A model generated the notes under the pieces. The model had not been told where the DNA came from, ran no database searches, and saw nothing but the letters and a program-made list of their open reading frames with translations. This document shows, in pieces, positions 8,588 to 55,775 of a DNA stretch of 64,000 nt (within the stretch, counting starts at the first letter, position 1; the number at the start of each line of letters is the position of its first letter). Source of the DNA: Halichondria panicea (Eukaryota > Porifera > Demospongiae > Suberitida > Halichondriidae); the NCBI RefSeq assembly GCF_963675165.1, contig NC_087380.1, positions 6,580,071 to 6,644,070 of the forward strand. Reading direction: 5' to 3'. The translations under genes and the position numbers were made by a program.

Positions 8588-9358
8588 TAGCCTCGATTTC
8601 AGGCCGCGAAGAGAAAGGCGGCCTGGTATACTTTGTATGCGCATGCGCGAAATAATTGACAACAATTCCATCATACAAATTGTAAAAAACGGACAAAGTT
8701 ACAAAAAGGAAGAATACGTATGACAATGTTACCACAATGGTAGCTTTCAGAGACACTATTAATCAAAGTAGAATAATTATGCTGCAGCAGTGCTGCTTCT
8801 TCTAGCTCTGTTTATCAATATTAAAGAGACAGTTCAAGAAGGCCTCCCAGACAGTAGAGCGCCAGCTAGGAAGAGTGGTTGACTCTTTAATACATCAGTA
8901 GATCTTGAGTGAATATTAAACTTCCTGAGTATCGAGTTAAAGCTTATTAAAAGCTTTCAGGAGTAATCATTAGCGTCTTTATCTTCAGCAATGGCTTCCT
9001 GTCGAACACAAAGGCAAGATTTAGTAGCAGAAGACTTGCCTGGTCCATATTACCACAGCCTCATCAGGGGACCCACAGGAACACATCATGCCTCTCCTAC
9101 AACATCTGTAGCCTTACAGTGTAGGGTGTCATTAAGTAGAGACTTGGCTTGATACAATAAAGGGCGTAAGAACTCAGTCATCTTTGCACAATACTTCTAT
9201 GTAACGGACTGTAACTTTAGAATACAAATAGTATACGGTTTATTTTACTGACAGTATCCACAAATACACGGATTACCCCCTTTTTGTGGTAATGTACGCG
9301 CATGCGCATACAAAGTATACCAGGCCGCCTTTCTCTTTGCGGCCTGGAATCGAGGCTA
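8588..9358. mobile_element. 771-bp non-autonomous transposon, long TIRs, perfect 9-bp TSD
   Basis: Terminal inverted repeats of about 70 bp begin TAGCCTCGA and pair 8588-8660 with about 9290-9358; they include the shared block GGCCGCCTTTCTCTT. The perfect 9-bp duplication ACATACACC lies at 8579-8587 and 9359-9367. The interior has no transposase-like frame, so the element needs enzymes from elsewhere. Long TIRs and a 9-bp duplication fit the Mutator-like superfamily. It has the same termini as the palindrome at 1950-2001. Confidence 0.85.
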
Positions 9359-9367
9359 ACATACACC

Positions 9368-10786
9368 CAGCACTACTGATAGCTACAGCTGCTATGTTAG
9401 TGCCAAGTTTTCTTTTATTCAGCTTGATTTGTGTGAAAAAAACACCAAATTGTCAGTTTGTGTACCTCTATCTCCAATATGAAATAATTTTATAACATGT
9501 ACGTTTCACATTCAAGTATGTTTATAACTGCATGGAACAATAACTCACTTGGTCCCTTTTATAGGCTACTACTTTTAGTGAAAAGAAAACCTAAAAATTT
9601 ACTATGGAATTCAAAGCATATTTTCCAGCTCTCAATGCAGTGAAGTAGTGGCAGCACCATGAAACGTTTGTCCGAAGTCCAGAAAGTTGCATACCTCTCC
9701 TGCTCTTACGTACTGTACATGGTAATCTAGTTTGAAGTGCTCTAAGACACAGTTTAGGTATTAGAAAGTGGAACACAAGTATCTTTATCTGTATTGTGTG
9801 ATCGAAGAGATGGCATTTGAAGGAGTTGGGAACAGACCTGTTATGGTTTGTAGAGAGTACTGACACCCCCTTTGGAGCTCACTTCCTCATCACTTTGCAT
9901 AAGCAGCTCTAAAAGATTAATAGCCTATGTCTAAGTGTATTTGGTGTCTCCTCAAGAGCACAGCTTGCTATAATACTACAAACACTATAAAATCTTTACT
10001 GACATTTTGAGTGCACACACCCCTTTTTGCTCATTACACACCCCTTTTTAGCAACTCACCTCATCCAACAGACGTGCTGGGCATTGCCTATCCCTTTCTT
10101 TTGTTTTTTGTTTATCTATAATGCAAGCCAATGCGTTTATCATAATTTATATTATGTGTGCTATTAGTATAGCTGCCGTTTGGCACCTCCACCGAGGCAT
10201 CAGCACCTGCGGTGCTTTCATCCTCACTATAGCAGTCACGGTGATAATACAATTGCATATATAGCGTGGCAACATGGAATCCGTAGAGTATGTGTTCCTA
10301 ATTTAAGCTAACTTGTTTAACCACCCACACAACACATCAACAGGCTTGCTTACATGAGGGTGGATTATCTAATACCCGGGACATGCAACACAGGATTCTT
10401 GTATTACCCACCACCCTCTCCTCTTCATAGGAAACTTATATATAATTATCTTCCACTACCAGATTTATATTTATGCAAGATTTGTGATGAGGTGTACATG
10501 CAGTCTACTATAATTCCCTTCCCACTAACGGCAATGTGGCCGATTTGGAGTGAGCCTGAAGGGTCATGAGAGGTCACAGACACACACTACAGACAGACGT
10601 AGCAAGTTTAAGTCTTATCCTCAACTAATCTCCGCATACAGCTGTGACCGGCGTCATTTGGCAGAGGAGGGGAGGAAATGAAAGGTTTTCCGAAGCTGCC
10701 AGTGCCAACGACCATATGATTTGAAGATGGCAGTTCAAAACGGGCTCATAGATGGGGTTGTTGTTGAGGCTATACTCATGAAAGGC
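9368..10786. other. Intergenic region upstream of the NIDO gene
   Basis: No gene seen. From about 10230 onward the sequence is the inverted counterpart of the left end of the window (460-2095). The site near 10320-10335 is the empty target of the 52-bp palindrome. Confidence 0.45.
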
Positions 10787-11145
10787 TCATTCCGAAGTAA
10801 CCATGAAAATTGAGAACATAATTATTAATTTTTTGTGCCATTCAATATAGACACGAATGATATTGAGGCTACATTCCAAAGTAACCATGAAAATTGAGAA
10901 CATAATTTTTAATTCTTTGTGCCATTCAATATAGACACGAATGTGATATTGAGGCTACGAATTAGAGAACTCATTCCAAAGTAACCATGAAAATTGAGAA
11001 CATAATTTTTAATTCTTTGTGCCATTCAATATAGACACGAATGTGATATTGAGGCTACGAATTAGAGAACTCATTCCAAAGTAACCATGAAAATTGAGAA
11101 CATAATTTTGTGCCATCTTCTATATATAGACACAAATGATGTTAC
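10787..11145 (+). repeat. Tandem repeat, about four units of 81-105 bp, in the NIDO gene promoter
   Basis: Units beginning near 10787, 10868, 10973 and 11078 share the core AAGTAACCATGAAAATTGAG followed by a block ending in ATAGACACGAATG. The second and third full units are nearly identical; the last is truncated. The array lies 130-490 bp upstream of the start codon at 11275. The inverted duplicate at 460-2095 does not show the same array, so it probably expanded after duplication. Confidence 0.75.
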
Positions 11146-26459: not shown

Positions 26460-26688
26460 TAGCCTCGAGACCAGCCGTTCATTATCTGAAAGAACGCCTA
26501 GTCAAGTTCCAATGTACAACTTGTCGAGCTGAGTCAGCGTTTTACAGCATCATAATGATATTCATGGGTAATACACCTTCTGCAGGCAATTATCGGTCCA
26601 TGAAATTCCTGGACCAATTAGACAAGTTGTATACATTGGAACTTGACCAGGCGTTCTTTCAGAAAACAAACGGCTGGTCTCGAGGCTA
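26460..26688. mobile_element. 229-bp palindromic TAGCCTCG element
   Basis: The two arms (about 26460-26528 and 26620-26688) are near-perfect inverted repeats of about 70 bp around a loop of about 90 bp. Ends are TAGCCTCGAGACC and its complement. The 9-bp flanks, CCATGGCGG and CCGTAACGG, match at 6 of 9 positions, suggesting a degraded target duplication. It sits upstream of receptor copy 2 in DNA that copy 1 lacks. Confidence 0.7.
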
Positions 26689-44500: not shown

Positions 44501-47500
44501 TAGCTTGAATTTCCAACTTGTCTTGGTAAGTGCCCACTAGACTCACGACAGCCTGGAGGTCTCGAAAATGTTCAACTTTATCAGCAATCTTAGAATCAAG
44601 ATAGGAATCAATTGTGATGTGATGGCTGATGGCTGAAAGAATTTGGGAGAGGGTCTCTCGAATTGTATACTTTGCTTGGTAGGGTGTGATTTTGTCTTGG
44701 TCACGTTCGTAAGAAACTTCATAAAGCTCGTCAACATCTTTATCGAGAGGGAAGAAGGCGAGAAACATCCCTGGGCCTTTGCTCAAAAATGGAAGCATCT
44801 CCATGAAGCCGGGCTGTCCACCTATGTCAATGATGTTGAGCAAAACTTTGCCCACCAACTGTTCCATGTAATTGCCTCGCTTGACAATATCTCGAAGGTT
44901 TTCAATGATTTTGTCGACCTTGGTTTCTGGAGCCTTTGCTACATTCTGTGAAACTTCCTTTGTTTCAAAATCTTTTTTTGGCTTTGAATCATCAATGAGA
45001 TCATCTGTTGGATTAGGAATGACTTCTTCAGATTTGACTACTCTGGAAATGGCAGTATTTACAACTTTTTGCAGGCCAATCAAGTAAGCAAAAATCAGTT
45101 GTGCTTCCTTGTCAATATATCTGTAGAGGCTTTGAGAATCAATTTGGAGTCACTTGACACAGCCAGGACTTGAGTACACTCGGCAAGAAGAGTACTGCAG
45201 CGTTTTCTGTCTTGCGGTGAGATAGATGCCAGGTTAAACAGGTGACCAAGCAGACGTTTTCGGAAGGTAGTTTTGCCGAGCCCTGATAGGCCGATTAGGT
45301 ACAGTTTGAGGTAGCGGAGGTTGATGGTGTTCTTTTTATCTCTCAGCAATTCATTCAGCTTGTGTACGTACTTCAACTGCTCTTTAATAGAGGCTGAAAA
45401 TGAAGGAAAGTTAAAGGTTAAAGTTGATCAATAAAGTGACAACCATTCATGCATCAAATCAATTAGTCGTGTATTGTAGTCTGTCAAATACTTGTACAAC
45501 GTAAAACCTTAATTAAAATCTTTATGGTAACGGATTGGAGTTATGCTCTCGTCTGATTTCTTGTTCCCACGCTTTTTTGTGGTTCCCCTGGCCAATCCTA
45601 GCAATTTTTCACATTGCAAATGTTTTTCTAGTCGGATTCCCTTTCTTTTTCAGTACAGTTTACGTATCATGACATGCATAAGTGAAAAATTAACCACTAC
45701 ACCTACGCACCACTTAAAGATGCGGTCTGATAGTGATGTAGTATGACATACTCATACCGGAACCTGGTTTACACTACAACTGCTACAGTTGGATACTCCT
45801 CTTTATACACTCCTGACGGTATAATATATACATTAGGCTACACTGTACATGGTTATCTGCCATAGGATCTGTACGATGGAGTGATTATGTACACATTTCA
45901 GAAGCCTCGATCTCCATAAATTTCAAGTATTTTGCATACTGTACAGCGGGTAATTTTCGTTGGTTCGTATGAACAATATTTTGTATTTTAAATATTTGTA
46001 CAGCTCAGGATAGTAACGTAGCCTCGTTCCCAGCCGAGTTGTCTCTAAAATAACGCTAGGTCGCCAACTAAGCCTGGTATTGATTGTATCTGGGCGTAGT
46101 TAGGAACCAAAAAACAAAAGCAGAGAGATTTGCAAGAACAACATACCTGTCGACAAGGGTCGGCAGTGTCCGACAGGAGCCTGCATGGGCCTCGGCCTTC
46201 TTGCTTCAGTAAGACAATGTATACGTTGATTTGAACAACTGAAACTTGCCATAGCTAACTAGCTAGATAATCTATGGTTAGATTTTATACTAGAGAGCAC
46301 ATACACGAAGCTAAATTACGGTAATATGACAGGAAACAAAATGTGAAGAATCTCTGCTTTTGTTTCCGGTTCCTAACCACGCAGGGGCGTAACTAGCAAT
46401 GAGTCAAAGGAGGCCCTTGCCTCCTAATTCAAGTGTCATGTGTCACTAGTTCTGGCTAGGTAACTTCTGGATAACTAGCCAACTAGGTATATAGAATAAG
46501 CAGAAAATGAGCTCTATCACTGTCTTGTTGATGAAGAAAAGAGCAGGTAAATAACAGTTATACTGCCATTTAATTAGTGGGTGTGGTTTCTGGGCAGCCA
46601 TTTTGCGGGGGCGTTGCCTCCTTCCCGTAAAATTTATAGTTATGCCCCTGCCACGCCCAGATACAATCACTACCAGGCCGTATTTTTCAACTTCGTTCTA
46701 TTAAAGAAAAATTGGCCTTGAACCGAGGCTATAGATAGTAACATTGAACCTATCTGCGGTAGAATATTCGTAAGATGCTCTTCAATACGAAAAATACGAA
46801 CATTTCCACCATATGAAAATAACCCGCTATACGATACTTTGTAAGGCAGCCGAACCTCGACAAGTCACAACACTCTGAGTCTACCAGTTGTTTTACTACC
46901 GCATTAAACAGTGTATACATAAAGTCTATTTGTGTTGAGGTTGACCTTCATAATGTTGTCATAACTTTGTCATACTTTACTGAAATTCAAAGTTCCATAT
47001 ACCATCGGATTCCTTGTTAAAAATTAAGCGCTTCTATCTATATGATGTAGAGCTGATAAGCTTCGTTTTTTCAACCAGCTAAAAGTTAGCATTTTCTATG
47101 TAGAAGTCCCCTGGCATACTTGTCTACCACATAAACCATAACTGAAGCCATAATTGACCACATAACTTCCGGGGCGAGCTCAACACAAATAGACTTTAGT
47201 ATCACGGTACTCACCTGCTGTGTCTATGGTTTCCTGCATTGAGAAGTCATCACTCTTGATGTACTTGACCTCAATTTCATCAGCAATGTCAGGACGGTTA
47301 ATAACTCGTGACCTTAGGGCTTTAACAACAACAGACCAGGTGGGGTTGGGTGAGGACTGGAGACGTTTTCTAAGCATTGCAGTGAGGCGATCTTCTGAGG
47401 TATGGTGGGTCTCAACAATATCCTGTAGAGCGAAATTCCTTAACATTAACATGTCTATAATTATAATTATAAAGTACAATTTTTCAGGTATAGGAACCCG

Positions 47501-48298
47501 GCCTTCATTGATGCGACGTTTGGACATTTTACTGGTAGCAAATTCGTGTACATAATTTATATAGCCTCGCCCAATATTATTTTTGGTTTAATATACACGG
47601 CACATGCAGAGAGTTTTACAACACTGCATGGTAGCTAATCTTAGAATCTTCAGAGCACTTTATTGCACATTTAATACAGTACATGAAACCATAGAAAGTG
47701 CTAGGAAACTGTACATGCCCTTCAATCACCTCTAGTGTTCTGAATGGTAGATGCAACTCAAGCCCCAGGTCGAACCATCTAGCACGAACATCACACAAGG
47801 CAGCACTCGCCTCTCCTAGTGTAAGGGACCCTGGAAACACATGTAAACAGAGGACAATGTAAAAGGCGTGGTTTTTGAAATACCGTATAGCGTGTATATT
47901 TCGAGGGTATATAATTATGTTCGTGGTTTTCGCTGATTAAGCATGTACCGCAAACATTTATACCAGGCTGCTATTCCGCAAAAACCTTTCGACTATCTAT
48001 ACTGGGCCTATTTGGAAACACTATGTACGTGCAGTGTTTGCATTGATAAGCGGATATATAGTGGTTAGAAAACAATGTGTGAAACCACATAATTAAATTT
48101 GCCAAATCTATTTTAAGCTAGCCGGTGCAGCCTCCTACAAATACTTATCAGCTACTTAGAGCGCCATATATTCGCGGTCAACACAACTCTATATATGCAG
48201 TAAAATTAGCCAGACCCTATTTTGGGTCTGGCTTCCGTGAGACTTAGTTTTATACCGTTTGGTTGCTCTTCGGAGGTAGTCGTATATGAAGCTTCCAT
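41542..48298 (-). CDS. Death - ROC GTPase - Ig - Death domain protein
   Basis: Exons on the minus strand: 48298-48256, 47830-47730, 47422-47215, 45393 to about 45120, about 45120-42813, 42656-42431, 42237-42116 and 41718-41542; about 1150 aa. A first Death domain (WFDLGLELHLP, DRLTAMLRKRL, WSVVVKAL) is followed by a ROC-type GTPase with P-loop GLSGLGKTT and the G3-like DIGGQPGF. Next come a long coiled coil (about 44530-44000) and a winged-helix, COR-like part. An Ig-like domain (SFEWTKN, DGFYTCEV) precedes a second Death domain (WYHLAINL, AWFKKGSPSWSDMVEAL), which ends the protein. No signal peptide, so the Ig fold would be intracellular. The frame slips by one base near 45120-45150, between the P-loop part and KEAQLIFAYL; no canonical intron explains it, so it is a real frameshift or a sequence error. 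Partners are unknown. Confidence 0.78.
41792..41996. mobile_element. MITE, CCGTATAGCGGG family, in the last intron of the Death/ROC gene
   Basis: About 45-bp inverted ends: GTATACCGTATAGCGGG at the left and its near complement (CCCGCTATATGGTATAC) at the right, continuing inward with TTTTCGTGGGGTAAAA. About 205 bp long, no coding capacity. Related ends occur at 17654, 26865, 45938 and 47883. Confidence 0.75.
45534..45665 (+). repeat. Solo copy of the 51.4-kb foldback arm
   Basis: Closely matches the reverse complement of 51420-51550 and the plus strand of 51890-51994 (shared core TGGTTCCCCTGGCCAATCCT). It lies in an intron of the Death/ROC gene. Confidence 0.75.
46018..46733. mobile_element. 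Second-level TAGCCTCG element with 9-bp TSD
   Basis: Ends GTAGCCTCG and CGAGGCTATA, flanked by GATAGTAAC at 46009-46017 and 46734-46742. Inside are two arms (about 46072-46140, and 46345-46380 continued at 46651-46680) that are inverted copies sharing CTGGGCGTAGTTAGGAACC-like sequence, so the element was a foldback before it was split. Confidence 0.75.
46382..46650. mobile_element. Innermost nested element, CAGGGGCGTAACTA ends
   Basis: Inverted ends CAGGGGCGTAACTA and TAGTTATGCCCCTG enclose 269 bp. The flanks show a 5-bp repeat CCACG (46377-46381 and 46651-46655). It interrupts one arm of the element at 46018-46733. CAGGGG ends suggest hAT, but the short flank repeat does not fit the usual 8 bp. 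Confidence 0.65.
47883..47995 (+). repeat. Partial MITE with a CCGTATAGCG end
   Basis: Begins ACCGTATAGCGTGTATATTT then GAGGGTAT, like the MITEs in the Calx-beta introns. A matching right end is not seen, so this is a fragment or one-sided copy. Confidence 0.45.
48208..48233. repeat. Perfect 10-bp stem hairpin in intron
   Basis: AGCCAGACCC and GGGTCTGGCT are separated by TATTTT. It lies just downstream of the first-exon donor of the Death/ROC gene. No tail of T residues supports a terminator role, and none is expected here. Confidence 0.5.
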
Positions 48299-48612
48299 CA
48301 CTGTACATATATAGCGCTTATATTTTGTTTACTTGCATGCATGCAGTCTATGCATCATGTACCATCATTTACCATCATTTATCTCTTTGGCAGGACTGCT
48401 AGGGGGATCGTACTCCACTGTCACACTGACTGTAGACTGCATGGATGGGGTAATGCATGTAGATCATGTAACTACAAGAGGACTGCATGCATTATCATAT
48501 ATGTATATATGCGTATATCAGGATATTTGATGTTAAAACGGGTGATGATGAGGGAACAGCTCAGGAGCATACTACAATCGGCATTTTGTATACTAAAATT
48601 AATAATAATTAC

Positions 48613-50381
48613 CATCAGTGACTTTCCCTCATCATTCTTTAAAGAGAGTGGAGGGGATTGGTATCTGCCATTTCTGAGAAGACCAAGAGGGGGGATATCC
48701 AATGTACCGATAAACCTGCATGTACAGTAGTCATGGATGTTATTTTGACTTATGCAGTACTTACGCGCCTATCAATACCAGACCCCATTACCCCCCCCCC
48801 CCTGTGGAGCGTAGTGGAGTTTCAAGTAATCCCAAAGTGTGGGTTGGGGTGAGGAATTCGACTTTGAATTCTCATAATATCCGGAAAAATATATATAGCA
48901 CGTGCATATGTGTACTCAATTAGTGCATGTCATCAGTTAAATTCCAGGGTTATTAAGTGCATGGGGGTATATGGGAGGGGAAGGGGGGTAGTGCATAGGA
49001 ACTGACATTGATAGGCGCATTATATGTACTATATTATACTAATTCAATCTCACTTGTGACTGTTTATAGTAGCGGATTTTCGAACATTGAATTCTTGGTA
49101 TAAGTCAAACTTGAGTGATTGGGTACTGCTGGTCTGCAAGGGTTCCTTCAGTGGAAACACAAACTCCTACATTTTAAACAAAAGAGTGCAAATATCAAAA
49201 TTCAGTAACGTAATCCGTTTACGTTTACGTATGTATGTATATACATATGCAAAACATGCATGGCTCTATATGCTATTATACATCCGTTTTGAGGTTATAA
49301 GCTAGACAATGACAATGTCCTGAATTCATACATAATTTATCACCTCAAGCCAGTTGACAGTAGAAGTCGGCAGGCTCATTAGCGGTCTCCTTGTGGTAGT
49401 CCGTCTCTCCTTCCCTATGAGTGCAAACATCAAGTCAATGCAAATTAGTGGACAATATTGTTCAACACAAAATGTCGGCCTGGGAAAAGGCAATTCCTAC
49501 AGATTTTAGATTGGATAATTGTCACACCGTAATGGTCCCTGCTATAAATTATCCCCCCCTGGACCAATTATATATGATACCTATACCCTAACCCGGCCCT
49601 GGGGGATAGATAGTCTATTGGCAACTTGACGGTCAGGGCATTCTGCTATACACAGTCGGGGACTCATTTTATACGGGGAACCATTTATGGCATGACATGC
49701 AGGATCACTTGTACCATAGATTGAAGAGTTAGAGGGATAGGAAACGAAGTGGTGCACGTGATAATTTTACATTGAATCTGCAGTGGAGCCTCGAAAACTA
49801 TTCACGTTACGCCCTATGAACGAGGCTATTAAGCACATTTTTGCCGGGTAACTCCCAAAGCTATATATGTTTCCTCGAGACATCATCTCTTTCAGCAATT
49901 TATAACATGCCTAGTCCATGAGCCTTGTGTAGTACTTGCTAATGACTGACCATATCCAGTAAAAAGAGACTTTCCAATAAAGTTATATGTTCCCAAGGCT
50001 GTTTTAGAGCTAATGGAACATGTATAACGTGTAAGCGTGCTGGTTATGACTACTACAATAGGTATAGACCTTGAAATATAAGTGAGTTGCACGGACTAAG
50101 CACAGTTACTTGTAGTTTATTATGCACTGGTGTAGTAGAAATAGGTATTGTTGTGATGGCCTCGATTAAACTGCAGCGTAGCGCGGATGTATTCGAGAAT
50201 ACCAACCGTTTCCTATCCCTCTAACTCTTCAATCTATGCTTGTACGTGGCAGCTTCAACCATAGGTATATTACATATCTACTTCTAGCTAGCTATAGAGT
50301 ACCTTCAAAGGAAATAACCACAAATAAACGTCCATTCCCGGGAAGTTTTGCTGCACTTATCTCCTTTACTCTCAGAGCCAT
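48613..50381 (-). CDS. C2-domain protein (3' end uncertain)
   Basis: Minus-strand exons 50381-50303, 49414-49344, 49166-49054 and 48715-48613 keep phase at each GT-AG junction. They spell a C2-like beta sandwich: MALRVKEISAAKLPGNG, VVISFEG, NWLEEFVFPL, LKFDLYQEF and FIGTLDIPPLG. C2 domains bind phospholipid, often with calcium, but the usual run of acidic calcium ligands is not obvious. An acceptor-like CCAG lies just 5' of the chosen Met, so exons further upstream are possible. After 48613 either the donor GATG-GTAATT is used, or the frame reads on to a stop at about 48472. The phase does not join directly to the Death/ROC gene, whose first exon starts at 48298, so I treat them as separate; a fused gene is the alternative. 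Confidence 0.6.
48767..49020. mobile_element. Possible MITE in a C2 gene intron
   Basis: Inverted ends GCGCCTATCAAT and ATTGATAGGCGC enclose C- and G-rich runs and about 254 bp. No clear target duplication. Confidence 0.5.
49715..50238. mobile_element. 524-bp inverted-repeat element in C2 gene intron 1
   Basis: Inverted ends of about 32 bp begin CATAGATTGAAGAGTTAGAG. The flanks carry the 7-bp direct repeat CTTGTAC (49708-49714 and 50239-50245). A small palindrome bounded by AGCCTCG and CGAGGCT lies inside at 49787-49827. No coding capacity. Confidence 0.7.
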
Positions 50382-51996: not shown

Positions 51997-52635
51997 CATG
52001 GATATAGTAAGTACTACCTAGTCAAGCGGTCGGGAATCAAGCCTATTGTTCTGGCCTGTTACGCAATAGTATCATGAATATCATTCATTCTATCAGTATT
52101 TCTATAAGAAAGCCTGTCAGACAATGTTTGCGCAAATGCAATTAGTGGATGCCCACTACTCAGCTCAGAAAAATCTGACCCGGATTCAATCTGGGTCGAT
52201 TAGATGTCGTGTAAACAGGGCTATACTATAGACTCAAACCGTCTATATATAATAATATAGACGTCTGCGCATGCATTACTTTGCGGAGGAAATATTCGTG
52301 AGTGCAAAATATAACGCCGAGTGTTTCCACCGTTTTCCACAGGAAGGCAACTCATGTCGATCACAGCGGAGCAGATCAGTGCCGATCAGGTGAGTGGGTG
52401 GGTGGGTGGAGCTAACATGTACTGAATGCAGCAGAAATGTCAATCATGCAGACTTAACCTGCTATTGGATATAATTATGCATCAAACTACTCTAGAATCT
52501 ATCAACTAATGTCCTTCCTTCTACTCTAATCAGCTATATATATTATACATAATTATGGGTTAATGTAATTATGGCTTTGCGTAAATGTCACGAAATATGC
52601 TGACTATGCATATAATATTAATGTATTATACTATA

Positions 52636-55274
52636 TTGCGATAATAATGCGTTCTCCTGTTCTCCGCGTTCTCATGGTTCTCGTGGTTCTCCTGTTCTCA
52701 GCGTTCTCATGGTTCTCATGGTTCTCCTGTTCTCAGCGTTCTCATGGTTCTCTTGTTCTCAGCGTTCTCCACGTTCTCATAGTTCTCCGTGTTCTCATGG
52801 TTCTCCTGTTCTCTGCGTTCTCCACGTTCTCATGGTTCTCCTCGTTCTCAGCGTTCTCCTGTTCTCAGGGTTCTCATAGTTCTCCACGTTCTCATGGTTC
52901 TTCTGTTCTCAGCGTTCTCATGGTTCTCCACGTTCTCATGGTTCTTCTGTTCTCTGTGTTCTCATGATTCTCCTGTTCTCATGGTTCTCCTGTTCTCATG
53001 GTTCTCCTGTTCTCAGCGTTCTCCGCGTTCTCATGGTTCTCCGCGTTCTCTTGTTCTCAGGGTTCTCTTGTTCTCAGCGTTCTCATAGTTCTTTTATTCT
53101 CTCCACGTTCTCTGTGTTCTCAGGGTTCTCTGCGTTCTCATGGTTGTCTTGTTCTCCGAGTTCCCGTGGTTCTCCTGTTCTCACAGTTCTCCATGTTCTC
53201 ATGGTTCTCCTGTTTCCCGCGTTCTCTTGTTCTCAGTGTTCTCTTGTTCTCATAGTTCTTTTGTTCTCCACGTTCTCTGTGTTCTCATGGTTCTCCTGTT
53301 CTTCGCGTTCTCATGGTTCTCCGCGTTCTCATGGTCCTCCTCATTCTCCTCATTCTCCTGTTTTTCGGGTTCTCCACGTTCTCTCGTTCTCCGCAATTTC
53401 ACGGTTTTCTTGTTCTCTGGGTTCTCCTCGTTCTCAGATAGCCATGATAATGTGAGAACAGGAGAACAAGAGAACGCAGAGAACGTGGAGAACCAGGAGA
53501 AAGCGGAGAATCCTAAGAACAGGAGAACCATGAGAACGCGAAAAACCATGAGAATGCGGAGAACAGGAGAACCATGAGAACACGGAGAACCCTGAGAACA
53601 GGAGAACCGTAGGAACAGAAGAACCATGAGAACACGGAATACCCTGAGAACAGGAGAACCATGAGAACGTCGAGAACCATGAGAACACAAGACACAGAGC
53701 TCGCCCTGTACGCTGATGATATACTCCTGTTCAAACCTATTGTAACCAAACTGATGTAAAAGACCTCCAACAGGATATCAATAGAATCGTGACCTGGATC
53801 AGTGAGCAAGGTCTCAGCCCCAATCACTCCAAAACCCAGCTCCTTCCAATCACAAGATGTAGAAGACAACCTGCCATCAACGTAACTGTTAATGGCCACC
53901 CAATTTCCCCCAGCAAGTCTGTGAAGTACCTTGGTGTGTCAATCTCCAGCAATCTTACTTGGTCTGACCACATCAGGTCCGTGTGCAAATCGGCCAAAAG
54001 ACAACTTGGCATGATGCATAGGCACCTCCGACATGCCCCGGCAAAATTAAGACACCAAATCTATAAGACCACTACCCTCCCCAAACTAGAGTACTGCTGT
54101 GCGATCTGGGACCCTAGGAGCTCAGTTGATAACTTGGCCCTAGAGAATGTTCAGAAGTTCGCTGGCAGGGTGATCACGGGCAAATGGAAGGAACCGTACA
54201 ATATCCTACTAGAAGAACTAAACTGGTTGCCGCTTACCATCAGAAGAAAAATACAAAAACTAAAAGTATGCTATAATATTCTTAATAATAATTCATGCAT
54301 ACCCTCCAACCTCTTCACGCCTCACCCTCACCCCTCACCCCGTTTCCCGCACTCCAAACCACTTTTTAAGCCATATGTAAGCACTATTGCACACAAGTCT
54401 TCCTTTTTTATAGAAGTTATTACTCACTGGAATACTTTACCTAGGTTTATTGTAGATAGTACATCTTTTTTAGTTTTAAAAAGAAATTACATTGTCTTTT
54501 AGTACGTAGCACTAACTACACTAATTTTAATATTGTTGTCCTTGTTTTGTTTGCTTGTTTTGTTTTTGTTGTGTTGTATTCTATGTTTTTTTTTTCTTTT
54601 TCTCGTTGTGCTGTTATGTCTTGTTTTTCTGTTTTTAGGTTGACATTACCATTAGCTATAACAAGCTATTTTCTGTCCTTCCCTGTATGCAATGCATCAA
54701 ATAATTATTGTTTAAAGAAAAAAAAAAAGAACAGGAGAACGCAGAGAACAGGAGAACCATATGACAACAGAACAACCATGAGAACGTGGAGAACCATGAG
54801 AACACTGAGAACAGAAGAACCATGAGACGAGGAGAACCTTGAGAACGTGGAGAACCCTGAGAACAGGAGAACCAGGGAACAGAATAACCATGAGAACACG
54901 GGGAACAGGAGAACCATGAGAACACGGAGAACCCTGAGAACCATGAGAACGCGGAGAATGTGGAGAACCATGAGAATCCTGAGAACAGGAGAACGCGGAG
55001 AACTATGAGAACGTGGAGAACCATGAGAACCATGAGAACGCAGAGAACAGGAGAACCATGAGCACGCGGAGAATTATGAGAACGTGGAGAACCATGAGAA
55101 CAGGAGAACGCGGAGAACTATGAGAACGTGGAGAACCATGAAAATGCGGAGAACCATGAGAACCATGAGAACGCAGAGAACAGGAGAACCATGAGAACAC
55201 GGAGAACCATGAGAACCCTGAGAACAGGAGAACTATGAGAACGCGGAGAACAGGAGAACGCATTATTATCGCAA
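52636..55274. mobile_element. Foldback (FB-like) element with satellite arms and 9-bp TSD
   Basis: Unique terminal inverted repeats TTGCGATAATAATGC sit at both ends. Inside, the left arm (52651-53440) is a long array of GTTCTC-based units, and the right arm (53455-55262) is the same array on the other strand as GAGAAC units, with a turn of under 20 bp near 53437-53455. Flanks are TATACTATA (52627-52635) and CATACTATA (55275-55283), matching at 8 of 9 bases, as expected for a target duplication. The right arm is split by a LINE fragment at 53689-54728. Long tandem-repeat arms resemble Drosophila FB elements; the relationship is by structure only. Reading frames along the array are artefacts of the repeat. 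Confidence 0.8.
53689..54728 (+). pseudogene. 5'-truncated LINE reverse transcriptase fragment, poly-A tailed
   Basis: Starts within the reverse transcriptase at LYADDILLF (about 53703), then is frameshifted near 53740. A second open frame at 53789-54502 gives the C-terminal part typical of CR1/L2/Jockey-like enzymes (VKYLGVSISSNLTWSDHI, LPKLEYCCAIWDP, LNWLPLTIRRKIQ). The 3' end is an A-run at about 54718-54728. Truncation at 5' and a poly-A tail are normal for LINE insertion by target-primed reverse transcription. It interrupts the satellite arm of the foldback element, so it is younger than that arm. It differs from the LINE at 12458-15540. Confidence 0.85.
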
Positions 55275-55283
55275 CATACTATA

Positions 55284-55775
55284 CAGTAATAGTAACTCCC
55301 AACTACCAACTATGCGTTTGAACTATCAAGTAGCAACTGCGAACTACCAACTACGCATTTGAACTATCAATTATGAACTATCAACTATATATATAGGAGT
55401 AGCACTCAGGGCCACCGTACTCAGAGCCACCGTAAAATGCAGTATTCTAGACCAAGTAATGATGCGTATTGCCCACACACTTAATTTTCCTTTCTCGTTT
55501 CTACAGAACGGCAACTGTTATTGACAAGTTAACATCACCAAACACTATATACCGTGCATGGACCCTATACAATTGAACAAACACTTATTTGTTATGTCAT
55601 AAAGTAGGTTTTTAATTACATGTTGACGTAAACAGCTCATAATTATTGTACACATACCATATACTCTCTAGGTAGTTAGGCTTAGGCATGGGTGGATGTT
55701 CAACATATATAGCTAGTGCACAACAGATAAATTGAAGTCAGTGAATCACACAGAGCCAAAAGAGTTCATTTGCCA
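55284..55775. other. Intergenic, short direct repeats
   Basis: At about 55298-55390 units such as AACTACCAACTA and TTGAACTATCAA repeat several times. The rest is the presumed promoter of the Ig-TM gene, with no assigned elements. Confidence 0.45.

Follow-up and report, generated by a model that had tools for sequence, protein, structure and literature searches.

A putative foldback DNA transposon family with head-to-head minisatellite arms in a sponge genome

The stretch of the Halichondria panicea genome analysed here (64,000 nucleotides, G000:C4:6580071-6644070; hereafter the window) contains an array of GTTCTC repeats that passes into an array of GAGAAC repeats, with the 15-mer TTGCGATAATAATGC occurring exactly at 52636-52650 (+) and 55260-55274 (-). 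The question raised by this locus is whether the inverted arrays are the arms of a discrete mobile unit and, if so, where that unit ends and how it moves. The window copy was compared with related sequences across the genome (131 Mb, 39 contigs), and its layout is as follows.

52569..52650, + strand: left terminal inverted repeat (90% identity to positions 3-81 of the 81-bp end)
52627-52635, + strand: left "9-bp flank" of the original prediction, within the left terminal inverted repeat
52636-52650, + strand: 15-mer of the original prediction, within the left terminal inverted repeat
52651..53435, + strand: left arm, GTTCTC minisatellite with units mainly of 9 and 8 bp
53433..53453, no strand: strand-switch junction CTCAGATAGCCATGATAATGT, with the word CTCAGATA(G/A)CCAT common to five of the six other two-armed copies
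53454..53689, - strand: right arm, inner part, GAGAAC minisatellite
53690..54728, + strand (limits approximate): insert in the right arm, a 3' piece resembling a non-LTR retrotransposon, with YADD motif, broken frame and terminal A-run
54729..55259, - strand: right arm, outer part, GAGAAC minisatellite
55260..55294, - strand: right terminal inverted repeat, reduced to its inner part (94% identity to positions 81-47 of the 81-bp end)

As had been predicted, the array of the window copy changes orientation from GTTCTC to GAGAAC only once, at about 53436. Within the left arm, successive GTTCTC motifs are spaced by 9 bp in 48 of 73 cases and by 8 bp in 14, the most frequent units being GTTCTCATG, GTTCTCCT and GTTCTCAGC. 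The right arm is split by an insert of about 1.04 kb that resembles reverse transcriptase and carries an A-run. From its motifs we take this insert to be a 5'-truncated LINE; its 260-aa frame gave no Pfam matches. Elsewhere in the window, a tandem array at 10783-11109 is composed of 84-bp and 100-bp units (matches of 93% and 100%); TTGAGAACATAATT occurs in it, but it is not organised as a GTTCTC-type array.

The 15-mer matches the window three times at up to two mismatches, against a mean of 0.14 in shuffled sequences. It had been taken as the whole inverted end, and it does form an inverted pair at the array edges, but alignment of the flanks across copies revealed common sequence outside it, which faces opposite ways at either end of a copy. 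In other copies the inverted repeat extends outward as far as tips reading GGTTATTAC..., and the 15-mer is the inner portion of a terminal inverted repeat of about 81 bp (GGTTATTACTTTG...GATAATAATGC, with the opening letters GGTTATTACTTTGTGTAAATGTCACG). A genome search with the 81-bp end returned 23 matches, including matches of 80-100% at both ends of copies C8, C11a and C11b; the second ends of C10a, C12b and the window copy gave partial matches. The window copy lacks the outer 46 bp of its right end, the break falling after about 55294. A 41-bp tandem repeat (2.4 copies, window 55290-55387) adjoins this broken end and may have taken the place of the missing sequence.

Recurrence of the 15-mer beside such arrays had been proposed as a check, and all 12 exact genome matches directly adjoin GTTCTC/GAGAAC sequence, although at C12c and C15 just a short stretch of it is left. 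Allowing one mismatch gave 33 genome matches (control, 2). Fifteen of the 21 one-mismatch matches were read, two proving to be element copies and 13 not. Five of the 21 read TTGCGATAAAAATGC, and in four of these cases a MULE domain is located on the same strand at a distance of about 1.4 kb. As an element end this word was rejected: in the two such cases that were read, it falls within an open frame belonging to one repeated MULE family, so that the match is coincidental.

Two-armed copies were found at seven loci: the window, C8, C11a, C11b, C12a (left end lost), C12b and C10a. A density map shows the same plan at all of them, one forward block followed by one reverse block, the latter being divided by the insert in the window copy. 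The word CTCAGATA(G/A)CCAT stands at the switch point in six of the seven; C12b has other sequence at its centre, without this word, and the few bases found after the word in the other copies are missing from C8. Pairwise identity in the junction region (200-248 aligned columns) is 72.9-91.4% among the six copies and 69.0-76.0% between these and C12b, but since such arrays look alike anyway, it is the common switch word, and not the percentage, that is the evidence here. Its presence in six of seven copies argues for one ancestral foldback copied as a unit, and makes assembly error an unlikely cause of the switch. Both C11b and C10a have a reversed centre. C11b also shows an exchange of the end variants TTAATG/TTACTG, as expected if the whole element was inserted there in the opposite orientation, while the ends of C10a are uninformative on element orientation.

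The sides of the copies range from 161 to 1042 bp on the left and from 516 to 1506 bp on the right (15-mer ends counted, the left start of C12a set by hand, the right side of C10a taken to its tip, and the right side of the window copy left out on account of its insert). The flanks of the copies do not match each other over long stretches. In an all-against-all comparison of the loci, from which array-dense rows were dropped, only short repeat pieces were common outside the element, bar two duplicated remnant pairs, which argues against segmental duplication of the two-armed copies. Reduced copies were also found.

C10b, C12c, C15 and two duplicated C9 loci: one-armed remnants, each an end with some array
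C10:6950254, C9:5155371, C12:4700491 and C12:4688439: tips without array, the two on C12 being a duplicated pair
C2:2354796: weaker tip without array
C11:4310674: 15-nt bare tip about 170 bp outside C11a

No convincing second tip was seen in the surrounding sequence examined at the tip-only and one-armed loci. The element remnants L046 (C9:1808938) and L047 (C9:1795806) are about 13 kb apart and belong to a duplication that matches at 92.6% over 1.9 kb. The C15 remnant (L016 3038-3230) retains an end and about 75 bp of array, and a 488-aa open frame without a Pfam match lies about 240 bp downstream of it. A second copy of this gene follows about 6.3 kb on (L016 and L059, about 9.5 kb, C15 from 1431500), 92.6% identical over 2144 bp. 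The identity starts about 35 bp past the array, with no match found further upstream, and the remnant would thus appear to lie at or near a duplication breakpoint. Open frames of hAT type (PF05699, PF14291) are located between the two tandem gene copies.

Target site duplications could be sought in C8, C11a and C11b, the only two-armed copies in which both tips can be recognised down to the final bases (one change in the left tip of C8). C11a is flanked by the direct 8-bp repeat CAATTGCT (8/8) and C8 by GTTTCAAC/GTTTCACC (7/8); at C11b, with both tips intact, a direct repeat is absent and the comparison at length 8 gives 2/8. For every other length between 4 and 12, the tip flanks of these copies have four or fewer matching bases at any locus. 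An ectopic exchange between copies was considered as an explanation for the missing repeat of C11b and rejected, as comparison of flanks by eye revealed no partner. Each of the other four two-armed copies (C10a, C12a, C12b and the window copy) has one tip changed or missing; in the window copy it is the right tip that is lost. No empty site was present among the listed matches to the joined flanks of three copies.

These loci thus display the features of the foldback class, namely long inverted arms with internal tandem repeats, a discrete unit at several places with common ends, and a target site duplication, here of 8 bp at two of the three loci retaining both tips. The element interior contains little besides the head-to-head minisatellite with its one conserved switch, arm length varying by copy. 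Folding with DNA parameters was computed for five of the seven two-armed copies (the window copy and C12a left out; three shuffles each), and the energies of all five are far lower than those of their shuffles. Cross-arm pairs dominate over intra-arm pairs in four of them (542/81 in C8, 584/142 in C11a, 897/36 in C11b and 533/78 in C12b); C10a, the arms of which are very unequal, has 207 and 202. Such computed folding, which does not describe cellular behaviour, shows arms predicted to be able to pair as single strands.

The central proposal of a discrete mobile foldback unit with minisatellite inverted arms is well supported, because there are seven two-armed loci, a junction common to six of them, and 8-bp tip repeats at two of three. 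The sequences are best read as copies of a non-autonomous class II (cut-and-paste) foldback DNA transposon, to which we assign a probability of roughly 0.88. No transposase was found with these ends, and therefore movement is deduced from the copies and not from an enzyme. A transposase supplied in trans would recognise the ends of about 81 bp, cut the element out and reinsert it with an 8-bp stagger. The arms may have had a single origin, from a short repeat beside an end that was then joined head to head, and may later have been lengthened or shortened by slippage or unequal exchange during element copying. With long complementary arms a hairpin can be extruded, and this would promote the loss of an arm; the one-armed remnants could have come about in this way. 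By analogy with Galileo, the repeated arms may provide extra transposase binding sites, or they may be passive.

A search for an autonomous relative with a transposase between the same ends had been suggested, but none was found in genome searches with the 81-bp end, a 25-mer of it (16 matches at up to three mismatches; reversed-pattern control, 0), a 22-mer tip (24 matches at up to three mismatches; control, 6) or a 15-mer tip (28 matches at up to one mismatch; control, 12). Four of the tip matches outside the 23 obtained with the 81-bp end were read. As further ends, C17:4314912, C3:1770432 and C11:3829834 were rejected, as their sequence does not continue as this end; the fourth is the bare tip near C11a, C11:4310674.

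Domain searches of the genome gave 31 MULE, 46 P-type, 24 Merlin-type (IS1595/IS1016-type) and 32 hAT matches. Duplications in the Mutator (MULE) superfamily measure 8-10 bp, mostly 9 bp, to be set against the 8-bp direct repeats at two foldback loci. A narrower form of the main explanation, that this is specifically a Mutator-type foldback, is in keeping with the 31 MULE-domain matches. However, the nearest of them is 17 kb from any of the 23 end matches (a solo tip), none was found between foldback ends, and the ends of the single MULE family read are unrelated to those of the foldback; moreover, the P, Merlin and hAT superfamilies, which also make duplications of about 8 bp, have domains in this genome too. 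Assignment to Mutator can accordingly be offered only tentatively, at somewhat below even odds. Nor was a P-type transposase found between foldback ends, the nearest of the 46 matches being 249 kb from an end match, and the ends of the single P-like family read are unrelated as well. The nearest Merlin-type domain is 1.04 Mb from an end match. The transposase domain closest to any of the 23 end matches is a fragment of hAT type at a distance of 3.4 kb from the C15 remnant, where no good right end was found in 12.4 kb (best reverse score 19, versus 77 for the true left end). The hAT superfamily has CAG-type tips; those of the foldback are GGTTATTAC. The genome also carries a P-like transposon of about 3.5 kb (L057 and L058, at C12:3401549-3405055 and C9:702531-706036), the two copies of which are 99.94% identical, and which was probably active recently.

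It is improbable, but worth stating, that the enzyme belongs to an unsampled class and that the array is a working part of the element: the conserved 8/9-bp units would form a long string of transposase binding sites, and the head-to-head junction, with hardly any middle domain, would be kept as both arms must pair or synapse. If true, this would be a natural transposon consisting of almost nothing but binding sites.

The foldback reading was also set against a genomic satellite that inverted locally and never moved, the 15-mer being there by chance or as a spread flank. Arrays of short units are capable of inversion and expansion. However, the array 16-mer GTTCTCATGGTTCTCC has 76 forward and 84 reverse matches in the whole genome (control, 0 and 0), and counts within the element copies are again 76 and 84, so that all 160 matches are accounted for; this result covers one 16-mer, and diverged arrays elsewhere could escape detection. 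The minisatellite thus appears private to the foldback element. Different loci also have the 81-bp ends and the switch word in common, and a local inversion is very unlikely. The unit had been described as built from a satellite; the direction is probably the reverse, since the array 16-mer is found only inside element copies. Homogenisation of the arms within an element was considered and is unsupported: among the six copies with both arms measured (first 300 bp), the own opposite arm was the best-scoring partner for none of the 12 arms.

Inverted repeats are prone to mis-assembly, and opposite-strand reads joined within a repeat could yield such a structure, but the same junction word at six loci with different flanks is unexpected from independent errors, which leaves an artefact hardly credible.

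Scarcely tenable, finally, is the form given in the original prediction, a foldback that ends at the 15-mer, has a 9-bp target duplication TATACTATA/CATACTATA and is linked through it to the TAGCCTCG elements of the window, which have 9-bp duplications. The two 9-mers match directly at 8/9 in the window copy alone (7/9 inverted), whereas in other copies they fall within the longer inverted end and are part of the element itself: the corresponding sites in C11a and C11b, TATACTATG and CATAGTATA, match at 9/9 inverted and 6/9 direct, and those in C8 at 6/9 inverted and 5/9 direct. The window 9-mers are a near-palindrome in the inverted end, decayed into an apparent direct repeat, and the 8-bp direct repeats of two copies lie outside GGTTATTAC. 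A decayed near-palindrome within an inverted end can therefore mimic a target duplication, which becomes visible only by comparing copies. The proposed link also falls away, as the ends of the TAGCCTCG elements are unlike those of the foldback, the tip repeats of which are 8 bp.

Clean 9-bp direct flanks were seen in two of the five inward-facing TAGCCTCG pairs of the window, at 1950-2001 and 8588-9358 (GTGGGTGGC and ACATACACC, respectively). For the pair at 46019-46731, GATAGTAAC recurs in either flank at a distance of one and two bases from the ends, and no such flank repeat was seen for the pairs at 26460-26688 and 47562-49828.

Foldback elements of a comparable general type have been described before. 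TU, a sea urchin foldback, and Rehavkus have inverted ends composed largely of short tandem repeats, with duplications of 8 bp and 9 bp, respectively. The papers retrieved by a search on sponge genomes and transposable elements made no mention of foldbacks, and a search on foldback and Amphimedon surfaced only work on brown algal microRNAs.

A close match is Tetris of Drosophila virilis, an apparently non-autonomous foldback with tandem repeats in its inverted ends and a suggested Mutator-type origin; its three complete copies show duplications of 8-9 bp, and no autonomous copy was found (PMC4079207). The sponge element is similar in structure, in its few complete copies and in having no autonomous partner. 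It differs in that its units are mainly of 8/9 bp and its 16-mer is found inside the element only, while the internal repeats of Tetris (TIR-220) seeded genomic satellite arrays (PMC4079207). Tm1 of root-knot nematodes, a Mutator/Foldback family, has composite ends with varying numbers of an internal repeat of about 14 bp, and some of its copies carry nested inserts (PMC3169594). Short internal repeats in variable number and a nested insert are thus features in common. In Tm1, moreover, duplications are most often of 9 bp, the terminal motifs of 7 bp are asymmetric and a member codes for a transposase (PMC3169594), none of which was found here. Galileo of Drosophila is a foldback-like member of the P superfamily with long, internally repetitive inverted ends, and its internal repeats were tested and shown to hold transposase binding sites (PMC3688188). 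A P-type transposase sets Galileo apart from the present element, and the single P-like family examined here has unrelated ends.

The original prediction was sound in outline and wrong on the ends, the duplication and the linkage. The sponge element is a new family within a known structural class, and adds a clean foldback family for a compact 131-Mb eukaryote genome. It indicates that a head-to-head minisatellite can be both private to a transposon and spread by it, with one conserved junction and variable arm length. What sets it apart is an interior made of minisatellite and junction, almost without a middle domain.
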